From: Zingiber officinale
Taxonomy: Eukaryota; Streptophyta; Magnoliopsida; Zingiberales; Zingiberaceae
Direction of reading: 5' to 3'
DNA length: 64,000 nt
Assembly: GCF_018446385.1 (NCBI RefSeq)
Contig: NC_056001.1
Location: 7,211,600-7,275,599, forward strand
Shown here one piece after another: positions 9,747-40,819 of the stretch. Numbering within the stretch: the first letter of the stretch is position 1; each line of letters begins with the position of its first letter. Both the position numbers and the translations under genes were made by a program. The notes beneath the pieces are model-generated. The model saw only the letters and a list, made by a program, of their open reading frames with translations. It made no database searches and was not told the DNA's origin.

Positions 9747-10287
9747 CCTAGCATCCGGTCACCCTTGGCCAGCTAGGACTCTCTCACCAAGTGTCTGGTC
9801 AATCCCTTTGACCCACTTGGACTTTTCTCTTCTTGCCAAGTATCCGGTCACTCCCTAAGACCTACTTGGACTTTTCTTCCTCGTGCCAAGTATCCGGTCA
9901 ATCCCTTTGACCTTCTTGGACTCTCACCAGATGTCTGGTCAACCTTGACCCATCTGGATTTCTCTTGCCTGGCTTCACTCACCAGGACTTTCCCAATTGC
10001 CTAGTTTCACTCACTAGGTCTTTCACCTGGCTTCACTCACCAGGATTTTTCTCCTGCCTAGCTTCACTCACTAGGACTTCCCAATTGCCTAGCTTCACTC
10101 ACTAGGTCTTTCACCTGGCTTCACTCACCAGGATTTTCCTCCTGCCTAACATCCCAGTTAGGACTTCCCAATCAAGTATCCGATCATCCTTGACCTACTT
10201 GACTCTTCTTCAATCAACATTGCATTGTCAAACATCGAAACCCAAACCAAGACTCAAGCTTGGTCAATCAGGTCAACCTTGACCTGA
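9747..10287. repeat. Array of short hairpins with co-varying arms
   Basis: About fourteen short inverted repeats follow one another. Long type: outer arms CCTAGC/GCTAGG (9747-9777), CCAAGTG/CACTTGG (9787-9820), CCAAGTA/TACTTGG (9836-9869), CCAAG/CTTGG (9886-9919), CCAGATG/CATCTGG (9927-9957), CAAGTA/TACTTG (10173-10201), each around an inner GGTCA/TGACC-type stem. Short type: CCTGG/CCAGG (9968, 10026, 10114), CCTAG/CTAGG (10000, 10057, 10088), CCTAAC/GTTAGG (10144-10161). It closes with CAGGTCAACCTTGACCTG (10269-10286). Confidence 0.85.
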
Positions 10288-10529
10288 GGGATGTTGCACC
10301 AACAATATACCCTTCATATGTTATGATAATGAATTGAATTTTATTTGTTATAAATATTAGACACATATATCATTTATATGTTAGACATATTTTTTTGTTA
10401 TAAATGTTACTTAATGTTTATTTGTAATTTGACACAGGAAGAGAAGAAGAATGGAAAAAGGAGAAGGAAGTGTCTCCTAAGATAGAAAATGAAACTTGTT
10501 TTGATGACATATGTTAATGAATGATGTGT

Positions 10530-12070
10530 ACAATCCACAACTACATGATTATCATTAAGTAATAAAAGATATCGAACCCACAAAGACTGGATATAAGCAC
10601 TAGAGATTAATCACGATGAATTAGCTAAACGATCGATGGTTGAGAATTTATGCACTAAAGTGAAGAGAAACAAGATTAGGAGAAAGAGAGAGAGTTTGAG
10701 GGAGTTGAGGATTGATTGAAGACTTTGGTTGAGGGAAACATTCTAGAAGTTCGGTTTTATTGTGATGCTAATCAATGAACTAAGGATCACCAATTACCCA
10801 TCCTCTATCCCTATGCACATGTAGTAAGTTTGATTCATTACCGACATTTTCACGCGACGGTTATGTCGGAGTGTCATCTCTATTAACATCCAATGTTGCC
10901 CAATGGAAGTGATTCCTATGAAGTCTGGTTAGGGATACCCTTGTCACTAAAGCCCCCCGGTCATACATCCACAAGATACACAAAATATTTGATAACATGA
11001 ACATAGAAATAACTCAATAAGTCTAATTCAACAATTCCTTGTAGAGAGTTACTTTCCTTTCAAGGTGATGATGCTCTAGATGCCCGATTAAAGGGTTACC
11101 CTTGTCACTAGGGGTTTTCAGTCATACAATCTAGAGTATTCCCTCTACAGGGTGAACAAAACCACACAACCATTCAACCAAATATGAGAATTAAGCACCA
11201 ACACATCTCATACGCATAAAATCGAATGAATACAAGGTATAAGCAATATCATATGGAAAGGAAATTGGAAAATCCAAGAGTATACATCAATCACACATCA
11301 CAACTACTCCCTTAATTCTAGAACAATAAGATCTACCCCATAATAAGAAGGAAAGAATCCAAAGACAATGAAATCATAAGTTTAAAACTCAATCTAAAGA
11401 GAAGATGGGAGAAGAAGCTTATCCAAGACATTGAGTGTTCTTCATATCCAATCCCACTCTTCTGGAGTCGAAGGTGATAATGAAAACAGCTCCAGATCTT
11501 CAATCAAAGTGCAGAGAGGGCGTAGATTTGAGCCAAGATGGGTCTCTCAAAGGGGAGAACCTTCCTTCCCTCAAGAAGGGGAAGAACTCCCCTTAAATAG
11601 AGCCGAGAATAAGCCAGGGCACGGTCCGTGTCACGGCCATGCCCTTTGGCACGGCCAAACCTTGAAGTTGTGCTGTTGGAGTGACATGGTCGTTCCATGG
11701 TTTAATTCTGCTCTGTTGGAAAATGGCACAGCCATTGATTTGGTTCAGTTTGTTCGGCACGACCATGCCTTTTGGTATGGCCCTAGCTTGATTGGGTTCT
11801 AGTGAGCAGGCATGACCGTGTGAAACCACACAACCAAAGGTGGACTCTTCTCTAGATGGATGTCATGGTCGTGCCCTTTGGCACGATCGTGTGTTGCTTG
11901 GCCATGGATGAAGAGACACGGTCATGTGAAACCACACTGCGAAAGATCTGCTCTCTTCCTTGTCTCTCCAAAGCACGTTTCAATACCAATTTCGTTCAAA
12001 AAATGCATCCTATTAACAGAAAATCAAACAAAAATAGATCTCCGATGAAGATAGTAATTATGCTGAAAAT
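10530..12070. mobile_element. LTR-like insertion in the CACTA remnant, borders uncertain
   Basis: This block separates two stretches of CACTA-type AT-rich DNA. It contains the phrase aagatatcgaacccacaaagactgg (10566-10590), which I associate with plant LTR retroelements, two similar passages ending in cccttgtcacta (10938-10951 and 11098-11111), and several copies of a cacggccatgccctttggcacgg motif (11620-11910). No open frame has a recognisable domain. I could not fix a target duplication, so the class is a guess. Confidence 0.4.
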
Positions 12071-12570
12071 ATGACAAAGAGTGATAAAAATGCATAGAAT
12101 ATAAATAAAAAAAAGCAAGTGAATGTGTGTTAAAGTATGCATAAAGTGTATATATTCTACGCATATACTAGTTATTTTTGATGATTTGTTAGATGTGTTG
12201 TTTGGATAGTATGACTTATTGTTGAACATTGATATGTTATATGACTTGTAGTTATGGATATGATATGTATGGCTTGTAGTTATGGATTTGATAGTTTCAA
12301 GTTAAACTTCATTTTGTATGACTTCTTTTGAATGTTAATGGTACGATGTGTTGGAAAGGGTAATTGTAAGATGTGTTGGATGTTAATTATATAGAATGTG
12401 TTGAATTAATTGTATGATGTGTTGAATTCTTAAAAAAAAATATCATAAAATTTGTGATAAATTTTTATAATTTCGTCACAAATATGTGCCGGCTGTGAAT
12501 TAACGATGAAAATATTTTTACCCTAATTTCCATCGTAAAATTTAATATAAATTTATTATTATTATTTTTT

Positions 12571-12577
12571 GGTAGTG
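12571..12577 (-). other. CACTA terminal inverted repeat, right end
   Basis: Read on the minus strand this is CACTACCAAAAAA with its start at 12577, the classic CACTA terminus. Confidence 0.7.
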
Positions 12578-12841
12578 ATGGGCTCCAAGAGATTGGGACG
12601 GTGCGTCGTAATCGCACATGCTGATCAGGGTTGGCGTAATGTTTCCACTTATCCCTTGAGCAATATCTACTTCCAATAAAAATTCAAATGTCTGAAATCT
12701 CACGGTCATGTAGAACACGGGAATACTTGGCTGGGTGTTGACTACACGCATTGGAAAATTGGAGCGCTGTCACCATTTCTAGCTCATCTCATCGTCATCT
12801 AAATGCCATACTGATACCCGAGGGATATATAGGGTTCAACT

Positions 12842-13347
12842 TAAGGGTGTAAATAAATCAAGCCGTTCATGAGTTATTCGAAGTTCGATTCGATAAAAAT
12901 TCGTTTGAGCTCGTTTAATTAGGCTCGTTAAGATAAACAAGCCAAGTTCAAACTTCACAATACTCAGTTCGTTAGCTCATGAACACGTTCGTTAAGCTCA
13001 TGAATTAATTTTTAAATAACAATAATAATAATTTTGATATTAAATTTATAAATTTTACACTTTACTTATAAAAAATATAGACAAATATATTAAATTTATT
13101 TATTAGAATAAAATTATAAATTTTAATAAGAATATTATAATTTTCTCTAAATATATAATTTAGTTTTTAATGAATATTTAAATTTATAATTTATATTTAT
13201 TTAGCTCGTTTAGGCTCGATAAAAGCTTGAATAAGCTCGTGAGCCATGAATATATTCGTTAAATAAAGCTCAAGCTCGACTCGATTATAAACGAGTCAAG
13301 CTCAAACATTCAAGAATTCGGCTCGACTCGACTCGATTACCCTCCTA
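12842..13347. mobile_element. hAT-like MITE, 506 bp
   Basis: Ends are TAAGGGTGTAAATAAATCAA (left) and the complement of TAGGAGGGTAATCGAGTCGA (right), flanked by 8 bp copies GTTCAACT (12834-12841) and GTTCAACC (13348-13355). The inside is AT-rich with subterminal repeats of the gctcgtt / aagctcga words in inverted order. There is no coding capacity. An 8 bp duplication and TA(G/A)GGG-type ends fit a non-autonomous hAT element. Confidence 0.8.
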
Positions 13348-13923
13348 GTTCAACCCTTCCACGATTAATGCTATGTATAAATATCGATTTTAGCCTATGG
13401 TATATTATAAAAAAAAAAATCTAGTGGGATAAGTCTTAAAATGTTAGTCGTTTGAATGTATTTCTGATTTATTATGATGACAAAAAAAATTCTATAAGCC
13501 AAATCAATCATTTCCAGAATTATTCACTTAAAAAAGCTAAAATATGTATATAGAGAACCCAGCTATGCGGACAGAACGTTGCGCGCGCCCATGCACACCT
13601 AAGCGATCCAGGCATCTGGATCAGAGATGTAGACACATACATTTAGTTTTTTTAATCAACATCTTCTAAAAATAATTCTATATCCTATAAATATCTAAAA
13701 TTTTTAATTTTAAACACTATAATTCAAGAGAAAAGTCTGAATCTTAAAAGACAATCTTATTGATTCAAACTCATTATAATCTAACCACTAAATTCTAAAA
13801 TTTTAAACCTTAAATATATATAATATACCCCGTGAGTATCTAAAATTTTTAATTTTGAACACAATAATCCAAGAGGAAAACCTAAACCCTAGAGGGAAAA
13901 TCTTACTAACTCAAACTCATTAT

Positions 13924-14958
13924 TGTTAGAACCATTGACGGACGGCTAGAGGGAGGGTGTATAACCCCTGCATAAATCAAAACAAAAAGAACTTTTCTCG
14001 GCTTATAATTTAAATAAAATAAACACTTGCATAAAAATAAATAATAAACTGAAAAGAAAGAAGCATAACGAATTACTTGATTACAACTGGGGAGGTTGTT
14101 AATCCAAGACGAAAAAATACACTAAAAGATCTCTTCTGGGCGGAGAAGCCTCTTACAGCATTCAAAGCTCACAAAACAAAGCTAAACAAGAACTAGGAAG
14201 TACACAAGTGTTGTTTCAAACTATTCTGCATTGTACTTTAGCTTTGGGAGCAAGACTACTTATATAGCCTTACTCAGGGCGCTTGGAAGAGTTCCAGACG
14301 CCTAGAGGGGGATAAAATTTTATCTCCTTCGCAACGGATCGAGGTCAAACGCGATCCGGATAAAATCTGATTCTGAGCGCCCGAACTAGGAAAGCCAACC
14401 AAATTGACTATTTCCAGTCCGGGCCTTTCGCTCCAGCTTCGCTCGCCTCGGTCCGGGTCTTCCACTCTGGTTCCTCTTGCTTGGGTGATCTCGGCCATCC
14501 GGAATAGGGCTTATCCGAACCCAACTTCCGGCCTTCTCGAGTAAGCTTTCGCTTCGGCTTCTCGTCCCTCGGAATCATCGCTTGCTTCCTTCTCGTCCGC
14601 CAATGTACTATTCCGCAGCTCTTCATCCCTTAGACACATCAAGCTCGTCGACTCTCTCCCGTGCTAACCTTCTCGCTAGCTGCGTCTGTTACTCCTCAAG
14701 CAATCTTTCACTCCGGCTTCTCGTCCCTCGGAAACACCGCACGCTCCTTCTCATCCGCCGGTGTGCTCTTCCGCAGCACCTCGTCCCTCAGACGCACCGA
14801 GCCCGTCGGCTCTCTTCCGTGTCCTCCTTCTCACTAGCTGCGTCTTTTGCTCGATTCTATGTGCTCCTAAGTTCCTGCACACTTAGACACAGGATTAAAC
14901 ACAACATGACATAACCTAACTTGTTTGATCACATCAAAACAACCTTGGGGTACCAACA
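13924..14958 (-). repeat. Left LTR of the second element
   Basis: TATA box CTATATAAG lies on the minus strand at 14259-14267, with a GGCGC-type inverted repeat next to it (14278-14307). A 159 bp tandem duplication (14536-14853) makes this LTR longer than that of the element at 2479. Confidence 0.9.
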
Positions 14959-15723
14959 ATCTCCCCCTTTTTAATGTGAGCAACCCTAAATTAAGTTAGG
15001 GTAAACTAACATAAAGTAAAAGAATAAATTTGCAATTAAAGTGCAAAAATTAAAAAAAGTTAAAACTACCTCCCCCTAGACTTAATTTTCCCTTCTCTCT
15101 CTTTGATCACATAAAAAATGGGGTACCAAAAGAAATCTAAGAGTAAATTTTTCAAAAAATATGAATGTTTAAAAAAAAAAAAAATCTGATTTTCAACATT
15201 TTGAAAGACTTCTCAAGTTTTTGAAAATTTTGAAAATAATTGTGATAGCACTTAAAAAATTACAATAGTTTTAGAAATTTAAAAAAAAATCTAAGTAAAA
15301 AATATTTTTGATATCACAAAAAAAACATCAATAATTTCCTAAGTTAAAAACAAAAAAAAATATTTGAGTAACTTCAACAACTATTTAAAGCATTATTTAA
15401 TCATATTTAAATCCTTTTGTCAGTTAGTCAATTAAATATTTTATTTCATTAATTGGCTTGCAGACTGTGGCGAAGTACTAGATCTTCTTGGTTATTGGAG
15501 CAACAACTACTTTCTAGACAAAGCCTCTTAAGGAAATCAAACATTTAATTTTCTCACTAAAGACCCTAAGCCTAATTAAAATTTAATTTATACAAGATTT
15601 GGGAACCCAATACAGGTTCCTTCCAACTGAATTAATTAAAAAATTCTTTGGGACATATTTTCTGGATAGTTTTTTTATTTGGCCCCTATGAAATCTAAGA
15701 TTGACGCTTAGTCTATTATAATT

Positions 15724-16480
15724 TTAAGTTTTAACATTTAAGCATGCATGATTTGTCAAGTCTTCTACTTGTACTTTCAATTTATCATTTTCTAGTTTTA
15801 ACTTATCACAATCTTCTACTGGACAAGATTTATCTAAAATTAATTTCAATTCATTGTTTTCTTTTTCTAGCCCGCAACAGGTTTTTGATAGCAATTTAAC
15901 AAATTTGAACATCTAATCAGGTGGAAGAGATCGTACTTGACTTACCTGATTGATCCCGTTATTCGTAGCTCACCCTGAACTGCTGCTTTCTTCCGAAGAC
16001 TCTCCCCCTTCATCGATGCTCATCTGGGATGATCTTTCTGTGTCCTCAAGAAAGAATTCGGCTATAAGGGTTGTCTCGGTAATTTCCTTGGTCTTGGATT
16101 CTTCTGACGACGACTCGGTGCCCATCGAGGAGTTGGTTTCGGCTACAATTGGTTCTTCATAGAGCTTCAAGAATTTTTTTCCAAAGTTCTTTCGCACTTT
16201 GATAGTTGCTGATTTTGTCAAGATCCTTTACCGGTAGTACATTTATTAAATGATATTCAGTCTTACCATTTGACGTAAAGTCATCGCGCTACTTTTTGGT
16301 CTAGATGTGTTTTTCAATTTCTTCTCCGTTTGTTTTCTTAATTTGGTGCTTCATAACCATATTTTATTATTAATAAAATATTAAAATCTATTTTAAGAAA
16401 TACCTTCATGCGACGTTTCCAAAAAGCGAACTCCCCCTCAAATAATGGTGGGTAGATGCCAACTCCGGCCATCATCTTTT
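15724..16480 (-). pseudogene. Gag remnants of the second LTR element
   Basis: Segment 15912-15724 reads LLSKTCCGLEKENNELKLIL and DKLKLENDKLKVQVEDL, a coiled coil matching the equivalent part of the element at 2479. Segment 16221-15970 carries an acidic, serine-rich tail ending SIDEGGESSEESSSSG. Near 16420-16480 a few codons of the gag start are recognisable on the minus strand (MAGVGIYPPLFEGEFAFW). Most of gag, including the zinc knuckle, is deleted. Confidence 0.6.
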
Positions 16481-16516
16481 GCTTCGATCGGCGGTTAGTC
16501 CTCCTGAAGCGTCATT

Positions 16517-16528
16517 GCTCTAATACCA
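16517..16528 (-). other. Primer binding site of the second LTR element (mutated)
   Basis: Minus strand TGGTATTAGAGC, one base off the tRNA-iMet site, two bases inside the right LTR. Confidence 0.85.
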
Positions 16529-16530
16529 CT

Positions 16531-17583
16531 TGTTACGACCCTTGGCGGCTGGCTAGAGGAGGGGGGAATAGCCCTTGCACAAATCAAAACAAAAAGAACC
16601 TATCTTGACTTATAACTTAAATAAAACAAACACTTGCATAAAAATGAATAATAAACTGAAAAGAAAGAGGCACAGCAAATTACTTGGTTACAACCGGAGA
16701 AGTTGTTAATTCAAGGTGAAAAGGTGCACTAAAAAATCTCCTCTGGTCGGAGAATCCTCTTACAACATTCAAAACTCACAAAACAAAGCTAAACAAGAAC
16801 TAGGAAGTGCACAAGTATTGTTTCAAACTATTCTGTGTTGTGCTTTAGCTTTGGGAGCAAGGCTACTTATATAGCCATACTCGGGGCGCCTGGAAGGGTT
16901 CCAGGCGCCTGGAGAGGGATAAAATTTTATCCCCTTCGCAACGGATTGAGGTCAAACGCTATCCAGATAAAATCCGATTCCGGACGCCTGGAAGGGTTCC
17001 AGTGCCCGTACCAAGAAAGTCAACCAAGTTGACTTTTTCCAGTCTAGACCTTCCACTCCGATTTTGCTCATCTCGGTCAGGGCCTTCCGCTCTTGTTCCT
17101 CTTACTTGGGTGATTTCGTTCATCCGGAATAGGGCTCACTCGAACCCAACTTCCGGTCTTCTCGAGCAAACTTTCGCTCTGGTTTCTCATCCCTCGGAAT
17201 CGTCGCTTGCTTCCTTCTCGTCCACCAGCGTACTCTTCCACAGCTCTTCGTCTCTCGAACGCACAGAGCTCGTCGGCTCTCTCCCGTGTCGACCTTCTCA
17301 CTAGCTGTGTCTTTTACTCCTCAAGCAATCTTCCGCTCCGACTTCTAATCCCTCGGAAACACCACACGTCCCTTCTCATTCGCCGATGTACTCTTCCGCA
17401 ACACCTCGTTTCTCAGATGCACCGAGCCCGTCGTCTCTATTCCGTGTTGTCCTTCTTGCTAGCTACGTCTTTTGCTTGACTCTCTATGCTCCTAAGTTCT
17501 TGCACACTTAGACACAGGATTAAACACAACAGGACATAACCTAACTTGTTTGATCACATCAAAATAACCTTAGGGTATCAATA
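16531..17583 (-). repeat. Right LTR of the second element
   Basis: TATA box CTATATAAG lies on the minus strand at 16866-16874. A perfect hairpin with 11 bp arms (GGCGCCTGGAA / TTCCAGGCGCC, loop GGG) lies at 16885-16909. The same 159 bp internal duplication is present (17161 onward), so it predates this insertion. Confidence 0.9.
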
Positions 17584-17591
17584 ATTATAAC

Positions 17592-18298
17592 GGGGCAGAT
17601 CCTTTGGTCTACAAAAAAGTGGATCAGGGGATGGACTACTTGAAATTACGGTCGGATTGTGGTCATGATCCAGCCGTAATTAGTTGCAATCCCTCACTAA
17701 GTTCATTATCTCCCAGGTTATAGTTTGGATTAGGGAGGGTGGTCGGAGACCACTTGAAGGTCGCGGGGGTGGGCAAGTGGCCAAGCAACCTAGCGCCGAG
17801 TGGGAGACTGCCTCCAGGTGGCCTTCGGTTATCCGTCCCAATCCAAACTATAATCTTGGGGGGATGTTGAACCCAGGGAGGGATCACAGCCAATTACGGT
17901 CGGATCACAGTCACGATCTAGCCGCAATTGTAAGTGGTTCATCCCCTAGTTCACTTTTTTATGGACCAGAAGATTTGGGCTCCGGATCATGGTTGTGATC
18001 TAGCCGTGATTGGTTGCAATCCCTTCCTAGGTTCACCGGCCCCCCTCCCCTCGCGTTATAGTTTGAGTCAGGGTAGGTGGTCGAAGGCCACCTCCCGCTC
18101 GACGCCAAACTGCCTGGCCACTTGCCCAATGCCGGCGGCCTCTAGCCACCTGCCCCGATCCAAACTATAGCTTGGGGGACGGTGGACCCAGGAAGGGATC
18201 ACAATCAATTGCAGTAGGATTGCGGCCACAATCCAACCGCAATTACAAGTGATCCATACCCTAGTTCACTTTTTTTTGGACCAAAGGATCTGCCACCT
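17592..18298. mobile_element. Mutator-like MITE with long inverted repeats, 707 bp
   Basis: The left end GGGGCAGATCCTTTGGTC and the complement of the right end (GGTGGCAGATCCTTTGGTCC) match, and the similarity continues for more than 70 bp inward (AAAAAAGTG, then GATGGA, ACTTG, GGATTGTGG). The flanks are ATTATAAC on both sides (17584-17591, 18299-18306), possibly 9 bp with one mismatch. Internal sequence is also partly palindromic (ggttatagtttgg against ccaaactataa). Long TIRs with an 8-9 bp duplication favour a Mutator-like origin. There is no coding potential. Confidence 0.8.
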
Positions 18299-18579
18299 AT
18301 TATAACTCAACTCCTAATTTTTAAAATTTTGAACCCTAAATATATATAATATACCCAAACAATAAATAAAATACAAAAAAAAACATTCTGCTTAAATCCA
18401 GACACCTGGATTGAATCTAGGGCGCCTTGATTAAATACAGGCGTCCGAGGTCAGTAGGGTCACACGGCAGCGAGTCCGCAGTAGAGCATTTTCGTATATA
18501 TATATACTACACAACGGTGAACGACATCCAACGTGAATGATTTGAGCGGTCAAAACTTATTTTTTTCCTCTCTTATCTG

Positions 18580-24590: not shown

Positions 24591-24599
24591 TTGATATGA

Positions 24600-27764: not shown

Positions 27765-28423
27765 TAAAGGATCGAAAAGAATTTATATATCTCTACAATG
27801 ATATGATATTATCCACTTTGGGCCTAAGTCGTCATGATTTTGCTCTTGGCCTCTACCCAAAAGACCTCATACCAATAGAGATATCTTTTTCTTATAAACT
27901 CATGATCCTTCCCATATGTTTTCAATGTGAGACTATGTTTGTAATCTTGCAACCCCAACAATTCCCCTTCCCCTCAAACAAAGGACAATAGGATCTCCAT
28001 CAAGTATCGGGTCACTCTTGACCTACTTAAGGCCTCCCCTCGAGCATCGGATCACTTTTGACCTGCTCAGGGCTTCCCCTTAAGTATCGGGTCACTCTTA
28101 ACCTGCTCAAGGTCTCCCCTACTTCGTTCAAGGTTTCACCCATATGGTTCGATCTTGGATCATAGCTTTGGCTCATGCTTCTTCCGATGGTTAGTCCGGT
28201 GAAGAGCGACCTTGCTCTGATACCAATTAAAGGATCGAAAAGAATTTATATATCTCCACAATGATATGATATTATTCACTTTGGGCCTAAGTTCTCATGA
28301 TTTTTCTCTTGGGTTCTACCCAAAAAGTCTCATAACAATGGAGATATCTTTTTCTTATAAACACATGATCTTTCCTATGTGTTTTTAATGTGGGACTATA
28401 TTTGTAATCTTGTAATCCCAACA
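27765..28423 (-). mobile_element. Complete TRIM (miniature LTR retrotransposon), 659 bp
   Basis: Two 196 bp LTRs (27765-27960 and 28228-28423) enclose only 267 bp. The flanks are CATTC on both sides (27760-27764, 28424-28428). On the minus strand the LTR starts TGTTGGGATT and ends CGATCCTTTA, and the complement of TGGTATCAGAGC sits one base inside the right LTR. The LTRs differ at a modest number of sites. There is no coding sequence, so it must be mobilised in trans. The interior carries three hairpin modules of the type seen in the solo LTR at 8795. Confidence 0.95.
28214..28225 (-). other. Primer binding site (tRNA-iMet) of the TRIM
   Basis: Minus strand TGGTATCAGAGC beside the right LTR; this sets the orientation. 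Confidence 0.85.
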
Positions 28424-30184: not shown

Positions 30185-33123
30185 ATGGCTACATCTTCAG
30201 TTCCCAACTCTCCTCCCTCAAAGAGGCCACGATATGCTCCGCCAGATCCAACTCTTCCCAGTCCTTGGCGGGCTCTGATCGACGGCAGCACTGATTACCT
30301 GTACTACTGGAATTCGGAGACCAAGGTCACCTAGTATGAGCGTCCGGTCTCTGAGGACCCACCACTGACCTTGGTTGCTTCACAACTGCGACCTGGAGTG
30401 AGCTCATCCATGCAACAGCCTAAGCAACAGTCGCCTTTAGATGTCCCTAAAGAGAATGCGAATCAGAATCCCTGTCAGGTATTTTTTACATTGAAGAGAT
30501 TATGCGATAATGTGTTAATGTGTCGAGGAGAAAGGTTAGACATGAGCATCGAGAACTACTTCAAGTAACCACTCTTTTTTTTTCATATGATGCAACCAAA
30601 GAAATTGGATACCTTACTAACCACTGAGTGTTGGAAAAGATTGGAAGATAAGTATTTAATGTAAGAAGGCTTTGCTTCAATTGGCAGTGATGCCTTCTCT
30701 CTTAAGGCGGTTAATGCTGTAAAAAAAAAATAGATCTGTTTTATATATACTTGCTAGTGATGTAAAAAATGGTCTATCACAGCTCATTGATGATAACAAG
30801 TATCTCCAGAGTTGTTGAACCATTAATATATATATTGATCCATGCTTACTTATTGATGATGATATCAATCGTCTACCCAACATATGTAGATATTGGGAGT
30901 AGTACACTGCTAAAACGAGTGTCATAAGATGCAACTTATATGCTTGTTCATCTTCTACAGACAGTGAAGTGCCTCCTTTTATTAGGTGGATAAAAAAAGT
31001 ACGGTCATTGTCTTGACATTCAAGTTAGGCCAGTCTTGGTGATATGAATCTTTGCCTTTCAGTATGTAGGTAGTCGATCCATTGGTAATCCTTCAATCAT
31101 TGATTCAACTGAGTTTGTGCAAGATCCATCCATAGTGAAACATCACAAGCAAAGTTCAACAAAATCTGGTCCAGCTGCTTCAACTGCAGAAGCATATCGA
31201 AGTAAGCATGAAATAACTGTAATTGTATGCATCTTGCTTCATGGTTATGCTTGTATATATGGTTCTTTTGTTGGTTTAGCTACTATGTTTCTATTATTTT
31301 TATTTCTTTGTTAATTTTCACTTATTGAAAACTAATTTTGAACTATGAACTTAGGATTTTTCCTATTCATAAAATATACTAAGAGAAAGGTAGACACCTC
31401 TCTTTCTTTTGATATGTTTACAGGGAGATGTTGCTCCAGATCCATATATGACATTTCAATCTACTGGTTTTCCACCTGATATTCTTAAAGAGGTAACTCA
31501 TAGTATTTTGTCGTTATATACTTTGTTCTTGCATAGTTTGTACTTAAGGTTCAGTTTTTAACAAACATATGAAACAACTAAGAAAAGGTGGTATGGAAGA
31601 AAAGGTCACCAGTCCTTGTTTGACAGTCCAGTGTGTATGACCACTGGTCCACTAACAAATATCATAAGATGAGTAAGTGATTTATCTATTTTTTTGGGTT
31701 GTACAGTTGCCTCTGCTTCCTGTTATAATCATGTGCTTATAAAGACATCCGCCAATAACCTTCTCTTTAGATTGTTTAGAGATGTAAAATGCCCTTCTAG
31801 AAGATAGCATCATGGTGGCAAGGGGGTCATTATTAAGTGGTCCATTTTATTCAATGACCTCAATCATCTCATACCAAAATAGAAATCCTAAACCTAAAAT
31901 ATCAAGGTGGGATTAAACCCACAAATTACCAATAATCTATTAACTTATTACCTCTAACAATTTCTACCTTCTAATCAGCACATTCACTAACATTTTGTGT
32001 GGGATTTGAATGGCTTTGAGATGAGTTGCGTTTGAATGCCTTGTCTATATTGTAATTAGCAACATTGATGAGGAAGCTTTCTAATATAAACAGCTTGTGG
32101 GTGGGATGATATGGGACTTTTTGTTTTCCCTTTGAATGCCGACATCATAGTTGAGCATATATGGATTCATTATATAACCATGATATCACACTAAGTCAGT
32201 AATTATGACAACACTTTATGTCAGTTAAGATAGGGATTGATTCTGTATTTGATATAAGACTAGGTAGGATAATTCTGAGTTACTCTTGTTATTGTTTCAT
32301 TATGTTAGATCATGCTTTGATATCTTATGTCATTCTGGTATTACCATTTTGTCATTGATCTTACTCTTTTTTGTTAAGTGATGCGTCATTCTGTTGGTGA
32401 TCAGCGTCTAAACTTAATTTATAATGGCATTGTCTTAGAATTGTTTGCTTTTTTTGTGTCTATTTTTTTTTTCAATTTCAATGGGATCTATCGCTTCAAA
32501 TTTTATTTGAATTTTGTGACCCATAATCACTTAGCTATTCTTATTTTTAGTGTTAGCTTCTTTGGACACGTTTGCCTAATTTTCTAATATACCTGTATAT
32601 CTTAGAATGATTAAATAAATAATAGGGAGCACAACTAATTCCCTTGCCCTACCAGTTGTACTAGTCGCCTATGCCAGTTTTGAGACCATTCAATCCAACA
32701 TTATGGAGGTCTGACTTTTCGCAAGTTTCACAATGAAATCCTGGTTCCATATGTGTTTGTTTTATATCAACCTGTAATGGAGCAACATTTGTTTTTGTGA
32801 CGAGGTGTTGCACATTCTTGGTACTGAACTTCTTTTGTTTGTTGCTTTCATAGATACATCATGCCAGCTTCTCAGCTCCTACACCAATTCAGGCTCAGTC
32901 ATGGTCAATTGCCTTAAGGGGGTGTGACATTGTGGCCATTGCAAAGACAGGATCAGGAAAAACAGTAGGTTTTCTAATGCCAGGGTTTGTTGTTCTCAAA
33001 CGCAATCATAATAATTCTAAGATGGGTCCTACTGTACTAATTTTGTCACCAACGAGGGAGTTGGCCACTCAAATACAGGATGAAGCAGTCAAGTTTGGTA
33101 AATCATCAAGAATATCTTGTGTG
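30185..33123 (+). pseudogene. Captured 5' half of a WW-domain DEAD-box RNA helicase (RH14/RH40/RH46 type)
   Basis: Four exons with GT/AG borders, all in phase 0: 30185-30478, 31063-31218, 31424-31492 and 32854-33123. Exon 1 starts [20 protein letters not shown] and encodes a WW domain ([19 protein letters not shown]); a TAG replaces the Gln expected just before YERP. Exon 2 ends AEAYRSKHEIT. Exon 3 is [20 protein letters not shown], the region before the Q motif. Exon 4 holds the Q motif ([10 protein letters not shown]), motif I AKTGSGKT and motif Ia PTRELA. Plant proteins of this group (DRH1, DB10) have just this layout. Motifs Ib to VI, including DEAD itself, are absent, so no helicase activity is possible even without the stop. 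The match of intron positions shows genomic DNA, not cDNA, was captured. Confidence 0.88.
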
Positions 33124-33484
33124 GTATGTTTGATGATAGTTGTTATATTCCTAACAGTGAGTCCTTATTTGATTAGTTGCGAACTATGAATTTGTGTGCT
33201 TTGTAGAATGCAATGTGAGATATGTTAATGTCGCAGACAACATTCCATAGCTTTCTACTTATATTTCATTCTAACAACTCAAAAAAAACCTTTTAACAGA
33301 TTATGTTGATTCAACTGTTCATGTTCCTTGAACAATGCTTGATGTATATTTATTTATCAAGTGATGAAGAAGCTTATGACTAGTCTGTTTCACTTTTTTT
33401 TTGTTTCCCAAGCAAAAGGTATGTTATTATTATTATTAAAGTCATAAACCGTGTTCTTTCTATCTGTTGTTCTTCATCAAGCAG

Positions 33485-33773
33485 GATGGACTGCAAGCAC
33501 ATTTATGAGAAGGAACCAGTAATCCACTACATAAGCACAAAGAAACCACATCCTCGATGCCCAGTTGCAGGTAAGTGCCCTATCTATTGCAGTTGATCTT
33601 TCGTTGTTGATCTTTTTGCTCATTACAGCTACATCTTATCAGGTTGCCCAAAAATTCTCCAAGTTGGACGGGTTGTATGCAACGCCATGCTTACAATAGA
33701 AATTGATGAAATGCGTTTGGCATCAGCTACAAACATAAATTCAACAATGGTAGAAGATTTTTACAGAAGTTGA
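33485..33773 (+). pseudogene. Captured 3' exons of an MMS21/HPY2-type SUMO E3 ligase
   Basis: Exon 33485-33570 reads DCKHIYEKEPVIHYISTKK and HPRCPVA, and exon 33643-33773 reads GCPKILQVGRVVCNAMLTIE and IDEMRLASATN, then VEDF near a TGA. CKH, CPVAGCP and IEIDEMR are typical of the SP-RING domain and C-terminus of plant MMS21/HIGH PLOIDY2 (NSE2), the SUMO ligase of the SMC5/6 complex. Only the second half of the SP-RING is present. Splicing from the helicase exon at 33123 would read these exons in another frame and stop after seven codons. Identification is by recall of the family motif. Confidence 0.78.
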
Positions 33774-34755
33774 CTGAAAATGGCAACACTGCTCCCTACA
33801 ACTGTAAGCTTGATATAATTTTTCAAGGTGATTTAGCCCCTGTCGATGATTTGTCATCAGCCAATGCGATTTAGGCATCATAGTTAATTATCTTTTGATG
33901 TTGTAAGAGGAATATTTGTGTAATTTGTGGATACGGACTTGATGTGTACAATATCTATTATCTTTTTATATTGTAAGAATAATATTTATGTGTTGGTAAC
34001 ATGGATATTTACTTGGTGTGTTTAGATACACCGATGTATAATAATATTAACTAAATTTTGTACTATTAAAATGTTGTATAATATCGATTTTTCACTGTTT
34101 CAGAAATCAAATCGGCGTCGTTAAATAATATTGATATTACATCGGTTTTCCACCGCTGCCAAAACTGGTGTTATTAACATATATTACATCGGTTTTACAC
34201 CGTTGATGAAACAGTGTCGTTAAGTGATACTACACCGGTTAATAACCGATTCGAAAATCGGTGTCGTTAAGTGATACTACACCGATTTTAACTCGAAGTC
34301 TAAAATGGCAGACCTTTTACATCGCCTTCATAGACATCGGTCGAAAATGTAATAGACAGCGGTGGAAAACCGATGTCTATGAGGGTTTTTGTTGTAGTAA
34401 ATGGTTGACTCTAAGATAGTGTTCAGTCAAATCCAAGAGATTTAGGTGATTCTACATGAAATTCACTAAGAAGGCATGGTGTTGAGTGAAACGCCTTCCA
34501 AGTGATAATCATTGAGAAGTTGTCGCCTGGTTGAAAAGACTTCAAGGACTACCCGAAGCATAAGCGAAAGAAGATGAACATGGAAGAACTCGTTGTTAGA
34601 CTTTGCATTGAGGAAGACAACAAAATTTTAGAGAAAAAGTATTTTCTCCGACTACTATAAAATCCAAAGTGGTCTAGCACAATCAAAACTTGAAATAGAA
34701 GAATCTCAAATCTTCAAAGATGGAACCTATAGGAAGCATAAGCAAGAAGTTCTTT

Positions 34756-37140
34756 GGGAAGTACTTCAACTATGATTGAGTCGGTCACAAATCATTGGAG
34801 TGCATAAAGCCAAAGAATAAACAGGAGGTTAACCTGAACAAAGGACTAAAAATGGATGACCTCTGATTCATGGCCTCCGAACTGAATCTAGTCGGTTCAA
34901 ATACTCAATAATGGTGGATTAAAACTAATGCCACTATATATGTATGTTGTAATAAGGAGTTGCCCCCACAACTTTGAAGAAATCAAAGATGAGGACAAGA
35001 TATACATGACAAACTCAGTAATCTCAGGCATAATGGAACAAGAAAAAGTGATGCAAAAAATAACTTTGGACAAGGAACTCACTCTGAACAATGTATTATA
35101 TGTTTCGGATGTTCGGAAAAATCTAGTATTTGAATCAATGTTGAGAAACCAAGGATTTCACATTGTTTTAGGTTGGATAGAGTTATTCCGTCTAAAAAAT
35201 GGAGTGCTTTAGGAATGAATTATGTAACCTATGGGTTATTCAAGCTTAGTGTAATGGTCATTAAACCTAAGATTAATAAAATTGAAAACTCTTCTATTTA
35301 TATGTTTGAATCTTCATGTTTATGGCATGATAGACTAGGATATGTTAACTACAATGTGCTACGCAGACATACAAAGTATACTTACATTCCACCTAGACCC
35401 GAAATATAAGTGTAAGATTTGTGTTGAAGTGAAAATGAAGAGGTCATCGTTTCAACATGTTGAAAGAAACAATGAACCACTCGACCTAATTCACACAGAC
35501 TTCTATGACTTAAAATGTACATCGACACGTGGTGGGAATAAGTACTTCATCACTTTTATAGATGATAACATAAAATATTATTATGTCTATTTTCTCAAAA
35601 GTAAAGATGAAGCAATAAAGAAATTTGTTCTCTATAAGAATGAGGTTGAAAACTAAGTTATTAAAAAGATAAAGATGGTTCGAAGTGACTGAGACAATGA
35701 ATATGTATCATCATTCGCTCAGTTGTGTGTTGAATTTGATCAAACATGAAACAACAACTCATTATACTCCTCAAAAAAATGATGTTGTTGAGCAAAAGAA
35801 TCACACTCTAAAGTAGATGATGAATGTTCTTCTATTAAGCTTTGAATTATCAGAGTTCATATGTGAGAAGTTGTGTTAATAGTTAATTACTTTTAACTAA
35901 GGTGCCCCGAAAGAAATGGATAAGAGCCCTTATAAGTTGTGAAATGAAAGACAGTCATCTCCTAAATATTTACAAATGTGGAGGTGTCTTGCCAAATTTT
36001 GATGAATAATCCTAAAATGATTAAGATAGGACCAAAAACTATTGATTACATATTTATTAGATATGCATATAATATCAGTGCGTATTAATTTTTTTGTATG
36101 AGTCATAAATACCGAATATACACAAAAACTTGATATTAGAATTGAGAAATGCTTTGTTCTTCAAGTATATGTTTTTGTATAAGACCTGAGAGGAAGCAAA
36201 TTTATCAAAACAAGCATATGAAACATAAGAGGAAGAAGAATATGATGGACCAATTGAGGTTGAGTTCAAATGAAGTAAAAGAACTCGGATAGAAAAATTC
36301 TACAGAATAGATTTTATTATTTTCATATTGGAAAGTGAGCCCCAAAGTTACTCAGATTTAGTAAATTCTTTTGATGGACTTCATTAGAAAGAAGAAATTG
36401 CATCAGAGATAGACTCTATCTTGTAAAATTACACTTAAAAACTTAGGAATTTTTCTCAAGAAAGTAAACTACTAGGTTACAAGTGGATCTTTAAGAAAAA
36501 AAATAAAATTAGATGGTACAATTGATAAGTTTAAGGCTATATTGGTAATTAAAGTTTACTAACAATGAGAAGGTCTTGGTTACTTAGATATGTAATCTCT
36601 AGTATCAAGAATAAGTTACATTAGAGTATTGTTGGCTATCGTCGCTTTATGGAATCTAGAAATATATCAGATAGATGTAAGACAACCTTTTTATATGAGG
36701 ATTTAGAAGAGAAAATCTATATAGAGCAACCTGAAAGATTTTCTATGTCAAGGTAGGAAAATAAAGTTTGTAGATTGGTGAAGCCATTTTTACAGCTTGA
36801 AATAGACACCAAAATAGTGGCATGAAAACTTTGTTAATGTTATGAAAGAATGTGAATTCAAAATTAATGAATGTGATAAATTTATCTACATGAAAGTCAT
36901 AGAGAATGATTATGTCATCTTATGCCTATATGTAGATAATATACTTATCATTGGGAGTAATGATAAAATAATCAAATCCACTAAAGATATGTTAAATTCA
37001 AGATTTGTAATGAAACACATGGGCCTAGCTGATATGATTCTAGGAATTAAGATCTTAAAACATCAGAATGACTTGTTCTGAATCAATCTCATTATGTGGG
37101 TAAAATTCTTGATATTGTATTGGCATAGACTCTGATAAAT
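34756..37140 (+). pseudogene. Copia pol remnants: protease, integrase, reverse transcriptase
   Basis: The knuckle reads NYD, a stop, then VGHKSLEC, having lost its first cysteines. The protease active site WWIDTGA has become WWIKTNA, so the catalytic aspartate is gone. Pre-integrase words (SSCLWHDRLGYVNYNVLRR) and integrase words (NEPLDLIHTDFYDLKC, GGNKYFITFIDDNIKYYYVY) are clear. Reverse transcriptase ends with VILCLYVDNILIIGSND, where YVDD is YVDN, followed by MLNSRFVMKHMGLADMILGI. These changes make every enzyme inactive. Confidence 0.8.
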
Positions 37141-37217
37141 ATGAGTCAACATTATTAGACAATCTTCCATAATAAATATTGCTTGCTGAAAATTACAAGG
37201 ACAATTGCTGAATTGAA

Positions 37218-37914
37218 TGTAGGTCCCGTGCAACGGGCAAGAGGGGGTAAATTACCCTAAAATTATAAAGACACCCCTCTCAGAACTTTTGACTAAAGTT
37301 AATACAAACACGTTTAATAAACAAAACTAAAATTCATAAAAACAAGTATAAGACAAAAGTGTTTACTTGATTTGCAACCGGGGAGGTTGCTAATCCAAGG
37401 CAAGTGAAGCTCAACTAACAAACTCCTTCAACACAAGTCGGAGGTGAAGAAACTTCGTACAAGACGTTTAAAGCACAAAACTTGAAGAATATAATGGGAA
37501 TTTGATTACAATGAGTGTTGTTCTAAATTGACTGAACCAGAGCTCTATTTATAGCGCTCTAGTGAAATTTATTCTTTTCTGATGTGACGCAGTCCGAGCG
37601 CTTGGACCCTCTTCGAGCGCCCCTAAGGTGGCAAATTTTATCTCTACGCAACGGCTTCGCGCAACAGTTGGAAGATAGACTTTTTCATGTCCGGGCGCCT
37701 GGACCATGTTCGAGCGTCTGGACCATGTCCGGATGCCCTGACCAGTGCTGACATGGACCCAAAGGTGATCCATAGCAATGGAAATACGACGAGGAGGCTA
37801 TGAGGAGCCTTGGTGGTACAAACTCCCAGACCATCTTGTCAGGGCGCCCAGATGCTTCAGGCGCCTAGATCAGTCAACCTCAAGCTGATCCTCCAGGGCC
37901 TTCTTCGATCGCTG
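37218..37914 (-). repeat. Truncated SIRE-like LTR
   Basis: It starts TGTAGGTCCC at the Copia junction and shares words with the LTRs at 2479 and 13924 (ttacttgatttgcaaccggggaggttgctaatccaagg). A minus-strand TATA box (CTATAAATA, 37546-37554) is followed by GGGCGCCTGGACC inverted and direct repeats (37590-37720). It is cut off at 37914 by another LTR. Confidence 0.7.
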
Positions 37915-38945
37915 TGTCACGCCCCCTGAGGAGTCCCTGCCAGACAAAAATCTGACAGTATCTCCCCTGTACGGGTGACAATCTAAGACATACATACATA
38001 CAAAATACATCAGCCACATGCGGCTGGAATATATACACAACCACGCAGTTTATATTCAGCCCACTCGGCTGGAACATAATAAAACACAACCACAGAGTTA
38101 TATATATACAATAAACAACCCACTCAGTTGTATAAAAAAAACCAACACAGCGGAAAAACGATAGCAGAAAACCCAATACAAAACAAATCAACACATTGCT
38201 AGCCGACTAGGCTTTATACAACAACCACAACAACAAATACACCAAATACAGCAAATATCAAATACAAATAAAACATATACAAAACCCGAAACGATCTTCG
38301 GATGTAACGTAGGACCCGGCAGACAGGATACTCCAAGTGACATCTACTTGCTACATGAAAACATAAAGGTATACATGCGGTGGTGAGTATAGGTAACTCA
38401 GCGGATAATAGACAAGACAGTGCATGGACCATAAATAACATGGAGATCATAAGTATACAGTCTCAGTAGAGAATAAAGAACATGATCATACTAACATATC
38501 CAATAAACACAACTACCAGTATCAGTGTATCTCACATGGTATAACGGTCATAACTGACATGCAAAAACTGTACATACTACAACTAACAAAATGATAAACA
38601 CATACCTAATCTAGAAACGACACATGGTACAATGATCAATAAACTCACAAGATCTGCAACAAACCCACTCATGACACCTGTGCAATATAAATACAACTGC
38701 ATATATATGTAAAATAAATGACATGTATGCAGCATGACAACCATATGCAACAAGCATATCTCAAACAAGTGCAACAACCACAATCATATGCATCTAGTAT
38801 CTATTAGGCATGTATGCAAATATATCTCCAAAGATGCACCGCGCATCATATGCAAAAAAAATATGTATGCATGCTCCATGGTCACCCCCGCCATCTCTCT
38901 AGACACCACGACCCCTGTATGGCCGAGAGGCTTGGGTCCGTGACA
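37915..38945. repeat. LTR-like unit, 1031 bp
   Basis: Its ends are TGTCAC and GTGACA, perfect 6 bp inverted termini of LTR type. The interior is rich in short aca/ata words with several repeats of gccacatgcggctggaa / cccactcggctggaa. The flanking five bases do not match, so it did not arise by a simple solo insertion into one sequence, or one flank has been lost. Confidence 0.5.
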
Positions 38946-39453
38946 AACCGTACTAGCCTCCAGTACATTAGCTTATCCCAAAGTTTCTTTGCGTTTTCGT
39001 GTGGGTCGCCGCGGTTCAGCTCTTCTTTTGTTAGTCTGCACTGAATTGTGTTGAGAGCTTTCAAGTCGATCTGCGCCTTTTTCTTCATTTCTGGATTCCA
39101 ATGTTCCGGGTCCATTGGGATTCCATCGTTATCGACTGGAGCCTTGTAACCTCTAGTGATGTTGAACCACTGACCGAAGTCGGTCTTCAGATAAACTTCC
39201 ATCCGCTTCTCCCAGTATGGGAAGTCGTCACCATTGAATAGGGGAGGACAGACGATATTTTACCCTTCAAGTTGTGTCATTTGATGGCTATAGAAAAAAA
39301 AACTAAAACGGGGTACCAAGACTTAGTCTTGGATTAGCAGTGTTTGAGATGTATTTAAAACGATTCAAATGGAATGCGAAAAATCTAAAAATTATTCCCC
39401 CGGCTTGATTGGTGGTTGCACCAATTCAGAACATAACTGACTCTAATACTACT

Positions 39454-40819
39454 TGTTGGATCGATCGCACATGAGAGAGAGGGTGAATCACGTGGTTTTC
39501 AAAAAATTTCTTTTTGTAGTTTTGAAATCACGAGTATGCGCAGCGAAAATTAAAAAGAAACAGTACAAGAAAATACAGGCGGTTTTACTTGGTTCAGAGC
39601 CTTCAGCGACTCCTACTCCAAGACCCAGGTCCTGTGGACCTATCGATGGGTAATTTACTAAAAACCTCTTCCGGTACCTCCAGAAGAGAGAATCGGATAC
39701 AAGAAAATTTAGAACAAGTGCAACACCCTGCACTTGTCCTTTTGCAATAATTAAATACACAAAAATAAATGTTACCGAAACTTAGAGATTGATGTTGAAG
39801 TGCTTGTGTCGATGTCGGCCTGCTGGCTACGATCGGAACTCCTCGGAGCAGTTGTCAGGCGCAGCAGATTCGTAGTAAAGTAGTAGCAAGAACCCATAAC
39901 AGTCGGAACCTCGAAAGAACGCGTAGTAACTCGTATGGTAGTTGTTGTGGCTTACTTGGTCAAGCCTGCCTTATATAGGCTATGGAAGGCACCTTTCATG
40001 GCTATGGAAGGCGCCTCCAATGAGGCAAGTTTGATCCCGAACAGCCCAGCACTTATCCACTGTGATGCCAAAACTTTATCCTGTGGAAAGCATCTTCTAT
40101 AGTCATGGAAGACACCTTCTATGAACAGTACGAAAGCGCCTTCACTGCTTGAAGGCGCCTTCGGCACTATTCATCCGAAGGTAAATCAGCTCCTTTTGTC
40201 CTGCAAAAACACGTTAGTCCAAATAGTCTGCAAAACAAGTATTATGATAAATAATAAATTATAATAAAGGATAGTAATTAGTTCATGTCCTCCCATGACC
40301 AAGAACTAGTCAAGGTCTCAGTTTAGGGATCCCAAATGGACCTAAACTAGAGCAACACCTACTGTCCCTATAACCGGGACGTGTCCTCACTGGGTCACTC
40401 TCCTCCGGTGACTTACCTTAACTTATCAGTTTGCCAGACATTTAGTTAGCCCGTCGACCTATCTGTATTTCGTGCTAGCTATTCGGTCAGCCCGTCGACC
40501 TAGCTAGACTTCGTACTAGCTATCCGGTCGGCCCGTTGACCTAGCTGGATTTCGTGTCAGCTATCCAGTCGGCCCTTCGACCTAGCTGGATTTCGTACAA
40601 GCCATCCGGTCGGCCCGTTGACCTAGCTGGATTTCGTACCAGCTATCCGGTCGGCCCGTTGACCTAGCTGGATTTCGTATCAGCTATCCGGTCGGCCCGT
40701 CGACCTAGTTGGATTTCTTGCACACTTAATCAAGTGGTTAGATCATGACAGAATCTAACTTAACTTACTTGTCATTCATCAAAATCTGGATTAGACCGTT
40801 AGTGCGAACCGCACCAACA
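39454..40819 (-). repeat. LTR of the truncated SIRE-like element
   Basis: The minus-strand TATA box CTATATAAG is at 39970-39978, with GGAAGGCGCCTCC / GAAGGCGCCTTC inverted repeats beside it (39983-40170). A 41 bp tandem repeat occupies 40440-40720. Confidence 0.85.
40440..40720. repeat. 41 bp tandem repeat made of hairpins
   Basis: Six to seven units of the type AGCTATCCGGTCGGCCCG then TTGACCTAGCTGGATTTCG. Each unit is a hairpin: outer arms CTAGCTA/TAGCTAG (40474-40507) or CCAGCTA/TAGCTGG, inner stem GGTC/GACC. Units differ at a few sites. Confidence 0.85.

Follow-up and report, generated by a model that had tools for sequence, protein, structure and literature searches.

Two-step hairpin modules with paired arm changes in Sirevirus-like LTRs and a TRIM retrotransposon of Zingiber officinale

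Palindromic "repeated motif" arrays located upstream of the TATA box have been described in the LTRs of Sireviruses, and a role in regulation was suggested for them (Bousios 2010, PMC2829016). According to the repeated-motif table, in the sections of that article drawn on here, the units are single short palindromes with a CGG-CCG core in 12 of 13; the definitions of the Sirevirus PBS, PPT and C-rich signal used below come from the same sections. In maize Sireviruses, the clustered LTR palindromes attract an excess of small RNAs (Bousios 2016, as cited in the portions used of PMC10760457 and PMC5311732), and the question why plant LTR elements keep silencing-prone hairpin regions was raised by the authors of a 2023 maize study (PMC10760457). 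A preliminary description of the DNA considered here knew of no account of such structures; published accounts of palindromic arrays in Sirevirus LTRs, however, date back to 2010 (PMC2829016).

The window, i.e., the whole stretch of DNA that was analysed, comprises 64,000 nt of Zingiber officinale (NC_056001.1, assembly GCF_018446385.1, positions 7,211,600-7,275,599 of the forward strand) and is without an Rfam match at the gathering score. Pairing was counted in this window and in a 200 kb genome sample, in ten arrays with 65 inner cores. The two-step hairpin layout claimed earlier at three places is present as described, with pairing far above chance: an outer arm, three bases, a GGTCA-type stem, a loop, a TGACC-type stem and an outer arm follow each other in two LTRs (LTR1 and LTR3) and in a TRIM, the modules measuring 31-34 nt and forming a two-step hairpin that carries a 3-base bulge. 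The modules resemble each other in sequence as well as in layout, and their outer stems are short. LTR1 had been taken for a solo LTR at 9747-10287, which covers only the 5' part of its U3; its actual extent and features are the following.

8795-10304, minus strand (the sense strand): LTR1, a complete, Sirevirus-like solo LTR of 1,510 bp, with the TSD ATATA at 8790-8794 and 10305-10309
9280-9292, minus strand: TATA-like box TTTATAGC, at sense position 1017 of 1,510, about two thirds into LTR1
9708-9738, minus strand: module M0, arms ACCAACA/TGTTGGT, inner stem AGTCA/TGACT, the majority state in 28 copies
9747-9777, minus strand: module M1, arms CCTAGC/GCTAGG, innermost pair A.A
9787-9957, minus strand: modules M2-M5, arms CCAAGTG/CACTTGG, CCAAGTA/TACTTGG (twice) and CCAGATG/CATCTGG
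9968-10162, minus strand: second hairpin class, six copies, each with a CCTGG/CCAGG or CCTAG/CTAGG stem around the loop CTTCACTCA (TTTCACTCA in one of them), followed by a single CCTAA/TTAGG hairpin
10172-10202, minus strand: module M13, arms TCAAGTA/TACTTGA

The boundaries of LTR1 were set in L001, and identical LTR ends adjoin the PBS and the PPT in L007 and L008. The hairpins of LTR1 belong to U3 because they lie upstream of the TATA-like box. In the window copy, the second CCAAGTA/TACTTGG module of M2-M5 has the right arm TTCTTGG. The family comprises 2,750 candidate copies, 40 of which were scored; the M14 row of the copy alignment is out of register and was scored solely as "not Watson-Crick".

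27765-28423, minus strand: TRIM of 659 bp, with the TSD CATTC on both sides
27765-27960 and 28228-28423: TRIM LTRs, 89% identical
27962-27979: TRIM polypurine stretch
28000-28110, minus strand: three TRIM modules with a 40 bp period, in the interior between the PBS and the polypurine stretch
28214-28227, minus strand: TRIM PBS ATTGGTATCAGAGC

The coordinates of the TRIM were counted by eye. Its small size, LTRs, PBS, PPT, TSD and lack of a coding region are those of a TRIM, no ORF of at least 130 aa being listed within the element. Among 1,712 candidate copies of the family, 40 were scored. The majority arms in 21 copies read TCAAGTA/TACTCAG, TCGAGCA/TGCTCAG and TCAAGTA/TGCTCAA, so that just one pair position is cleanly exchanged between the modules. 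The matched state AAGTA/TACTT, reported earlier for the window copy, is shared by 7 of the 21 copies at the deciding pair, and the earlier account is overstated in this respect.

39454-40819, minus strand (the sense strand): LTR3, a Sirevirus-like LTR of 1,366 bp
39453 downwards: PBS-like AGTAGTATTAGAG, immediately beyond the LTR3 edge
near 39973: LTR3 TATA box CCTATATAAGG, at sense position about 843 of 1,366, the modules lying upstream
40434-40712, minus strand: seven LTR3 modules with a 41 bp period

Only two majority arm types occur in 40 copies of the LTR3 family, CCAGACA/TGTCTGG in the first module and CCAGCTA/TAGCTGG in the remaining six. The latter arms, which had been noticed in the window, are therefore those of the family, whereas CTAGCTA/TAGCTAG at 40475-40507 gives way to a CCAGCTA/TAGCTGG majority in the 40 copies.

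The three families had been regarded as unrelated in their other sequence. The R-U5 parts of LTR1 and LTR3 align with a score of 90 against a maximum of 76 in 200 shuffles, and the part of the TRIM leader past the PBS is matched by two leaders of the LTR1 family, with scores of 32 and 34 against maxima of 25 and 24 in 1,000 shuffles; moreover, the TRIM and LTR1 share one module type. Common descent is evident in modules, leader and LTR parts, so that LTR1, the TRIM and LTR3 are not independent witnesses. A motif common to unrelated families was rejected on account of the same R-U5 and leader homologies.

With respect to the Sirevirus signals, the PBS junction, consisting of CA, A(T or G)TGG and TATCAGAGC, occurs in the LTR1 element, where it reads TATCAGATC in L007 and CA followed by AGTGGTATCAGAGC in L109; the exact junction is also found in L002, though there next to another LTR1-like LTR, a more distant one of opposite orientation. 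The PPT octamer AGGGGGAG, starting 10 bp upstream of the 3' LTR, is exact in L110 (two copies examined) and has one G fewer in L008. L109 and L110 represent one LTR1-family element, which possesses both the PBS AGTGG+TATCAGAGC and the PPT octamer. The C-rich integrase signal of LTR1 consists of a C run then TCTAG, about 20 bp inside the 3' end of the LTR; that of LTR3 is weaker (CACCCTCTCTC). In LTR1 as well as LTR3, the palindromic repeats keep to the upper LTR half and precede the TATA box, in agreement with the Sirevirus definition, which has that box near mid-LTR. Both lack the CGG-CCG core, the left half being often CGGTC and the right half GACC followed mostly by T or C; Tnd-1 also lacks it according to PMC2829016, in the sections used, so the core is not universal. 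The LTR1 element gave matches to PF14223 (copia gag, E 8e-4) and to the zinc knuckle PF00098 (E 4e-4), both weak and below the Pfam cut-offs, and no match to pol was obtained in 5 of the 7 frames of at least 60 aa in a 2 kb middle piece of one copy.

The 65 cores were located without use of the outer arms and all of them entered the permutation test, the ten arrays having been picked after the pairing lists had been seen. The outer arms pair in cis at 358 of 455 positions, as compared with 221 on average and 267 at most when arms are re-dealt, and with a mean of 255 and a maximum of 296 when re-deals are confined within arrays; the value of 358 was reached by none of 20,000 re-deals, across or within arrays. 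Once nine of the 65 rows are removed as parse artefacts (six modules with 3 core/spacer mismatches, an edge core each from L019 and the TRIM, and an L027 core in shifted register), 347 of 392 outer positions are paired (88.5%), a share that falls to 10.5-26.3% when one arm is slid by 1-3 bases. In a blind test on the 200 kb sample, which holds 84 exact cores on the two strands together, 16 cores had all 7 outer positions paired in cis, as against 0.6% of the trans pairings. A motif-free scan yielded 68 pairs of hairpins that have the same loop and differ by paired changes in the stem, versus 0.67 in two-base-block shuffles; 51 of them fall within these LTR or TRIM arrays, including 37 of the second hairpin class. 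Chance as the source of the hairpin pairing is rejected, cis pairing being far above re-deals and shuffles, and the hairpin modules are real.

In all three arrays, the window copies fold below two-base-block shuffles (z -3.8 to -9.1). The sense strand folds more stably in 28 of 28 LTR1 and 27 of 40 LTR3 copies; the z-scores of the window copies are lower on the antisense strand, and the folding comparison was not used for the choice of strand. Wobble pairs display no clear strand preference, either in 56 modules (31 sense-type vs 21 antisense-type, p 0.21) or in the LTR3 copies (264 vs 224, p 0.08). Of the 31 array modules whose outer stem is perfect and at least 6 long, 30 have the 3-base bulge on the same module side, simultaneous bulges on both sides being excluded by the design of the search. 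The perfectly paired arm types number 12, joined by at least 16 paired steps, and those of L019 (7560-7860) and L017 (1340-1640) come from one copy each. In the second hairpin class, the 34 perfect stems are all CCTAG/CTAGG (19) or CCTGG/CCAGG (15).

The genomic copies behave otherwise. In 40 copies of the LTR3 family, one-sided changes (573) are more than ten times as frequent as two-sided ones (50 of 623 changed cells, about 8%), with 47 two-sided changes expected by chance and at least 50 obtained in 1,754 of 5,000 shuffles. Of the two-sided changes, 46 are Watson-Crick, slightly more than the 36.7 that shuffles give on average (at least 46 in 203 of 5,000 shuffles); eight of the 46 are one shared variant at one pair. 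TRIM copies exhibit 65 one-sided and 6 two-sided changes (4.1 expected), and the LTR1 family 32 and none. The two sides of the stem thus change almost independently in genomic copies. Decay being mostly one-sided, pairing is kept, if at all, before insertion and not by repair in the chromosome; such upkeep would rely on selection or, possibly, on reverse transcription. Strong hairpin-templated repair in the chromosome, which had been offered as an explanation, is rejected on these counts. The predominance of one-sided changes is the outcome which the preliminary description had named as speaking against its idea that pairing itself is kept; selection before insertion is still compatible with the data.

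Two amplified LTR1-type subfamilies (28 and 21 copies), counted by hand, show 3 paired and 2 one-sided differences at three matched modules, as against 50 and 573 cells in the old LTR3 copies (Fisher p 0.005, from small numbers and from cells, which are not events); with module M5, left out for its unclear counterpart, the figures become 4 and 3 (Fisher p 0.001). In the 21-copy subfamily, CCAAGTG/TACTTGG is established in 21 of 21 copies, and CCAGAAG/CATCTGG, with its A.A mismatch, is carried three times. The paired changes over module types, the conserved bulge and the similar loops argue that pairing mattered in the amplified lineages.

The explanation proposed, to which about an even chance is accorded, is that of palindrome-rich U3 arrays of Sirevirus-type Ty1/copia LTRs under selection on self-folding: selection during replication would keep each unit able to fold on itself. 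More weakly, the fold may act as an RNA hairpin in the genomic RNA, lying in the 3' U3 of the LTR elements and in the interior of the TRIM, e.g., as a Gag-binding or stability signal. A location in genomic RNA is common to all three elements and a place relative to the promoter is not; the best guess is a self-pairing cis element that may act as RNA or as DNA, perhaps in genomic RNA. Against selected pairing, the outer stems are short and unpaired states are established (the 21 of 21 subfamily copies; 8 of 21 outer positions in the TRIM majority not Watson-Crick), and against RNA selection, the wobble pairs are devoid of the clear strand preference which it might give. That the modules constitute a shape-defined RNA signal of Sirevirus-like elements and parasitic TRIMs, in which helper proteins read the shape while stems turn over and pairing is kept, seems unlikely.

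An enhancer at the DNA level, whose GGTCA/TGACC half-sites would bind a dimeric plant factor while the outer arms make a dyad-symmetric site wider or help a cruciform to form, is conceivable though on balance not expected. TTGACC resembles the W-box of WRKY factors. The arrays of both LTR families lie upstream of the TATA box, where Bousios 2010 (PMC2829016, in the sections used) places the repeated motifs and proposes regulation in general terms, and the inner-stem pairs vary little among TRIM copies. However, a protein site keeps its letters, whereas the outer letters change here while pairing stays; the symmetry is broken by the 3-base offset, and in the TRIM the modules take up a large part of the interior, on the downstream side of the LTR. 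The bulge is predicted neither by a symmetric protein site nor by a plain corrected palindrome, which bears on hairpin-templated correction, i.e., template switching by reverse transcriptase or in DNA replication that copies arm to arm without selection. This process would yield paired changes in short stems, might still operate at the reverse-transcription step, and agrees with the slight surplus of Watson-Crick two-sided changes in LTR3. It is nevertheless improbable: two-sided changes are not in excess overall (50 vs 47 expected in LTR3, 6 vs 4.1 in the TRIM) and are absent among the 32 changed cells of LTR1, the bulge that copying through would erase survives in 30 of 31 modules, and the triplicate A.A mismatch persists throughout the amplified subfamily.

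It appears quite improbable that the structure faces the host, folded palindrome transcripts feeding small-RNA silencing and pairing being a by-product or serving the host. The excess of small RNAs at maize Sirevirus palindromes (Bousios 2016, as cited in the portions used of PMC10760457 and PMC5311732) fits such a role, but pairing should be selected against in a silencing target, a point made in the 2023 study (PMC10760457), and the paired stem changes would be left unexplained. Common descent alone, in which duplication and recombination would have rearranged whole modules of a few old arm types and pairing would reflect few events, without continuing selection, is very improbable. The low number of perfectly paired arm types and of minimum paired steps would suit it, and the second hairpin class might go back to one switch that was then copied repeatedly; yet every step takes two matching changes, and two-sided changes arise at chance level in the presumably unconstrained LTR3 copies.

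Paired changes between module types and amplified lineages, set against near-independent change in copies, suggest that the elements need pairing itself, and the contrast between paired and one-sided changes provides a test usable in other plant genomes. The modules common to the TRIM and the LTR could represent a cis signal for mobilisation in trans.

Among known systems, the kissing-loop dimerisation and packaging domain of Ty1 (PMC5454406, in the part used) offers a functional analogy, in which RNA hairpins of an LTR retrotransposon serve as cis signals; that domain occupies the 5' end of the RNA, whereas the LTR modules lie in U3, at the 3' end. The TRIM resembles other TRIM retrotransposons in its 659 bp, short LTRs, PBS, polypurine stretch and 5 bp TSD but differs from them by interior hairpin modules shared with a Sirevirus-like LTR, of which a literature search, within the portions of the sources it covered, gave no evident report. 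The Sirevirus palindromes of Bousios 2016, as far as the citing passages describe them, likewise form a hairpin-prone LTR region of high sequence variability; here, covariation was counted arm by arm, in module types and in genomic copies. Like the Sirevirus repeated-motif boxes in the sections used of PMC2829016, the modules are palindromic, of high copy number and clustered in the upper LTR half upstream of the TATA box, their sequence varies between elements while symmetry is kept, box cores such as CGGTC...GACCG resemble the inner stem, and the PBS and PPT junctions are similar. Unlike these boxes, the units are two-step, with a 3-base bulge, covarying outer arms and no full CGG-CCG core, and they also occur in a TRIM. 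The palindrome-rich U3 setting is already known from Sireviruses, and the modules represent a bulged, two-step, covarying form of it.

Hairpin modules occur at three places in the window, and inspection of the sequence found them laid out as in the preliminary description, namely an outer arm, three bases, a GGTCA-type inner stem, a loop, a TGACC-type inner stem and the second outer arm. The elements that contain them, whose sense is assigned to the minus strand because of the position of the PBS, are the following:

8795-10304, minus sense, LTR1, a Sirevirus-like solo LTR with flanking TSD ATATA
27765-28423, minus sense, TRIM
39454-40819, minus sense, LTR3, a Sirevirus-like LTR

The solo LTR formerly delimited at 9747-10287 is thus part of a longer LTR with ATATA on both sides. 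M0, a module of the LTR1 array, possesses arms ACCAACA/TGTTGGT (9708-9738) which equal the LTR end letters and create a false LTR start at 9733; this may have misled the earlier reading of the boundaries. Copies were searched in the 3.09 Gb assembly (211 contigs, 22 of them 89-194 Mb); the haplotype-resolved ginger assembly is reported to comprise 11 pairs and 3.1 Gb (PMC8342452). Among the 40 LTR1 copies scored elsewhere in the genome, five pairs are spaced by 5.6-5.8 kb, as expected for the two LTRs of one element, and in the pair of contig C21 the PBS adjoins one LTR and the PPT the other.

The hairpin pattern is real and well supported, and occurs in a known setting. In a 200 kb genome sample (twenty stretches of 10 kb from nine contigs, placed at round coordinates fixed beforehand), all seven outer positions were paired in cis in 16 of the 84 exact inner cores, both strands counted, versus 0.6% of trans pairings. 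The larger test relied on ten arrays picked with pairing in view (three from the window, seven from the sample), in which 65 cores were found from the inner stem and spacer alone. Their outer arms were paired at 358/455 positions; re-dealing the 3' arms gave 221 on average and at most 267 across all modules, and 255 on average and at most 296 inside arrays (20,000 trials each). After 9 of the 65 rows were dropped, 347/392 outer positions were paired, and the slid-arm control paired 10.5-26.3% of positions. The perfectly paired arms fall into twelve types, and connecting these takes at least 16 paired steps. Of the cores that contain one mismatch or none (184), 38 had a perfect outer stem of at least six; 31 of these 38 reside in arrays, and in 30 of the 31 the bulge comprises exactly three bases and lies on the same module side.

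A motif-free scan yielded 68 pairs of hairpins that share a loop and differ by paired stem changes, versus 0.67 expected from three shuffling rounds. Inside LTR or TRIM arrays lie 51 of them, including 37 from a second hairpin class, present in the LTR1 array among others, with stems CCTGG/CCAGG or CCTAG/CTAGG and the loop CTTCACTCA. Among the 90 array candidates of this class, many of which are chance loops, 34 have perfect stems, all of two matched types, and eight others resemble decayed versions, CCTGA/CTAGG being the closest to a hybrid.

The behavior of genomic copies does not bear out the idea that paired changes would prevail in them. For the LTR3 family (40 copies, mean identity 81%, 82 pairs with a Watson-Crick majority state), 573 cells, i.e., single pairs in single copies, were changed on one arm and 50 on both, with 47 of the latter expected if the sides were independent; 1,754 of 5,000 shuffles reached 50. 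Watson-Crick pairs account for 46 of these 50 cells, versus a shuffle mean of 36.7 (46 being reached by 203/5,000 shuffles), and eight cells of this slight excess come from one variant, common to copies, at one pair. One-sided changes similarly prevail in the LTR1 family (28 copies, 32 versus 0) and in the TRIM (21 copies, 65 versus 6, with 4.1 two-sided expected). With two-sided counts so near to chance, genomic copies therefore change nearly regardless of pairing. By contrast, when the LTR1 family and the subfamily typified by the stretch L009 (28 and 21 copies, respectively) were compared by hand over three matched modules, paired differences numbered three (the outer stems of M0 and M1 and the inner stem of M0) and one-sided differences two (M1, M2). 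Set against the LTR3 cells, this gives a Fisher p of 0.005, on small numbers, with cells rather than events counted and modules matched by array order. Mismatches also became established: 21/21 copies of the L009 type have a G.T in M2, and a module that occurs in triplicate in such copies carries an A.A pair. The maintenance of pairing is imperfect.

The remaining sequence of the three elements, previously held to be unrelated, is partly homologous. LTR1 and LTR3 align in R-U5 (score 90, maximum 76 in 200 base shuffles), with no signal at their 5' ends (20, shuffle maximum 30) and no match between their leaders (14, maximum 24). After its PBS, the TRIM leader matches two LTR1-family stretches, L109 (32 versus a maximum of 25) and L007 (34 versus 24), with 0/1,000 shuffles in both cases, as well as a neighbouring LTR1-like element (37 versus 27); the TRIM module is 81% identical to an LTR1 module over 42 bp. 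The last two thirds of the LTR of stretch L017 (1340-1640) match LTR3; at the U3 module position this LTR has other small hairpins, with stems CCAGA/TCTGG and CAGGA/TCCTG and similar loops, e.g., like ATCNNACA. Judging by this one copy, hairpins seem to be retained at the U3 module position even as their sequence is replaced.

Were folding of the sense RNA selected for, that strand should tolerate G-U pairs more readily. Wobbles showed no clear strand preference, with 31 of sense type and 21 of antisense type in 56 modules (p 0.21) and, respectively, 264 and 224 in the LTR3 copies (p 0.08). The modules are located upstream of a TATA-like box in both LTR1 and LTR3, so that they should enter RNA only as the 3' U3, and in the interior of the TRIM. 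Since a place in the genomic RNA is the feature common to the modules of all three, a putative RNA function is weakly favoured.

Other repeats and elements were observed nearby. Tandem palindromes CTCCGGGCGCCCGGAATGG occupy 2911-2959 and 6289-6335 of the window, not far from segments matching the 5' part of LTR3 (3293-3361 and 6661-6729); these regions may be further LTRs that carry a different type of palindrome. A 58/115 bp tandem array at 63230-63863 has a unit holding the palindrome-like GTGAGAGCATGCTCAC, variable among copies, and an ORF at 1981-2445 encodes a copia gag domain (PF14244, E 8.9e-9). The LTR1-type element of contig C18 (stretches L109, L108 and L110) contains a gag-like piece; the frames scanned in its 2 kb middle piece gave no pol match, and the element is possibly a non-autonomous amplifier. 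Beside a C18 LTR1 copy, a more distant LTR1-like LTR (L002:484-1467; 77% over the aligned part) lies in opposite orientation with its own PBS. The TRIM and LTR3 of the window recur as copies in the same order at C15:9383715 and C15:9398132 (95% and 93% identity), perhaps as the other haplotype, for which the divergence would be high between alleles.

The preliminary description knew of no account of such repeats. Palindromic motifs of Sirevirus LTRs are in print, repeated upstream of the TATA box and of env and differing among elements (Bousios et al. 2010, PMC2829016); that paper suggests regulatory roles for them, with no test. The palindrome region has been presented as a variable small-RNA hotspot (Bousios et al. 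2016, via PMC10760457 and PMC5311732), and PMC10760457 raises the question why such structures persist. In the mostly non-subscription literature, judged at listing level, no evident report was found of compensatory stem changes in Sireviruses, of LTR inverted repeats with compensatory mutations, or of TRIM hairpins like these modules. As far as this literature extends, what is new is the two-step module with its bulge, the contrast between module types and genomic copies, drawn arm by arm, and the occurrence of the modules in both LTR elements and a TRIM. A further palindrome block fills the stretch of the LTR1 U3 (9311-9683) that separates the hairpins from the TATA-like box; it is made of the partly tandem units TGGATCGATCCA, CCAATCGATTGG and GGATCAATCC, of which CCAATCGATTGG resembles the Tnd-1 motif of PMC2829016.
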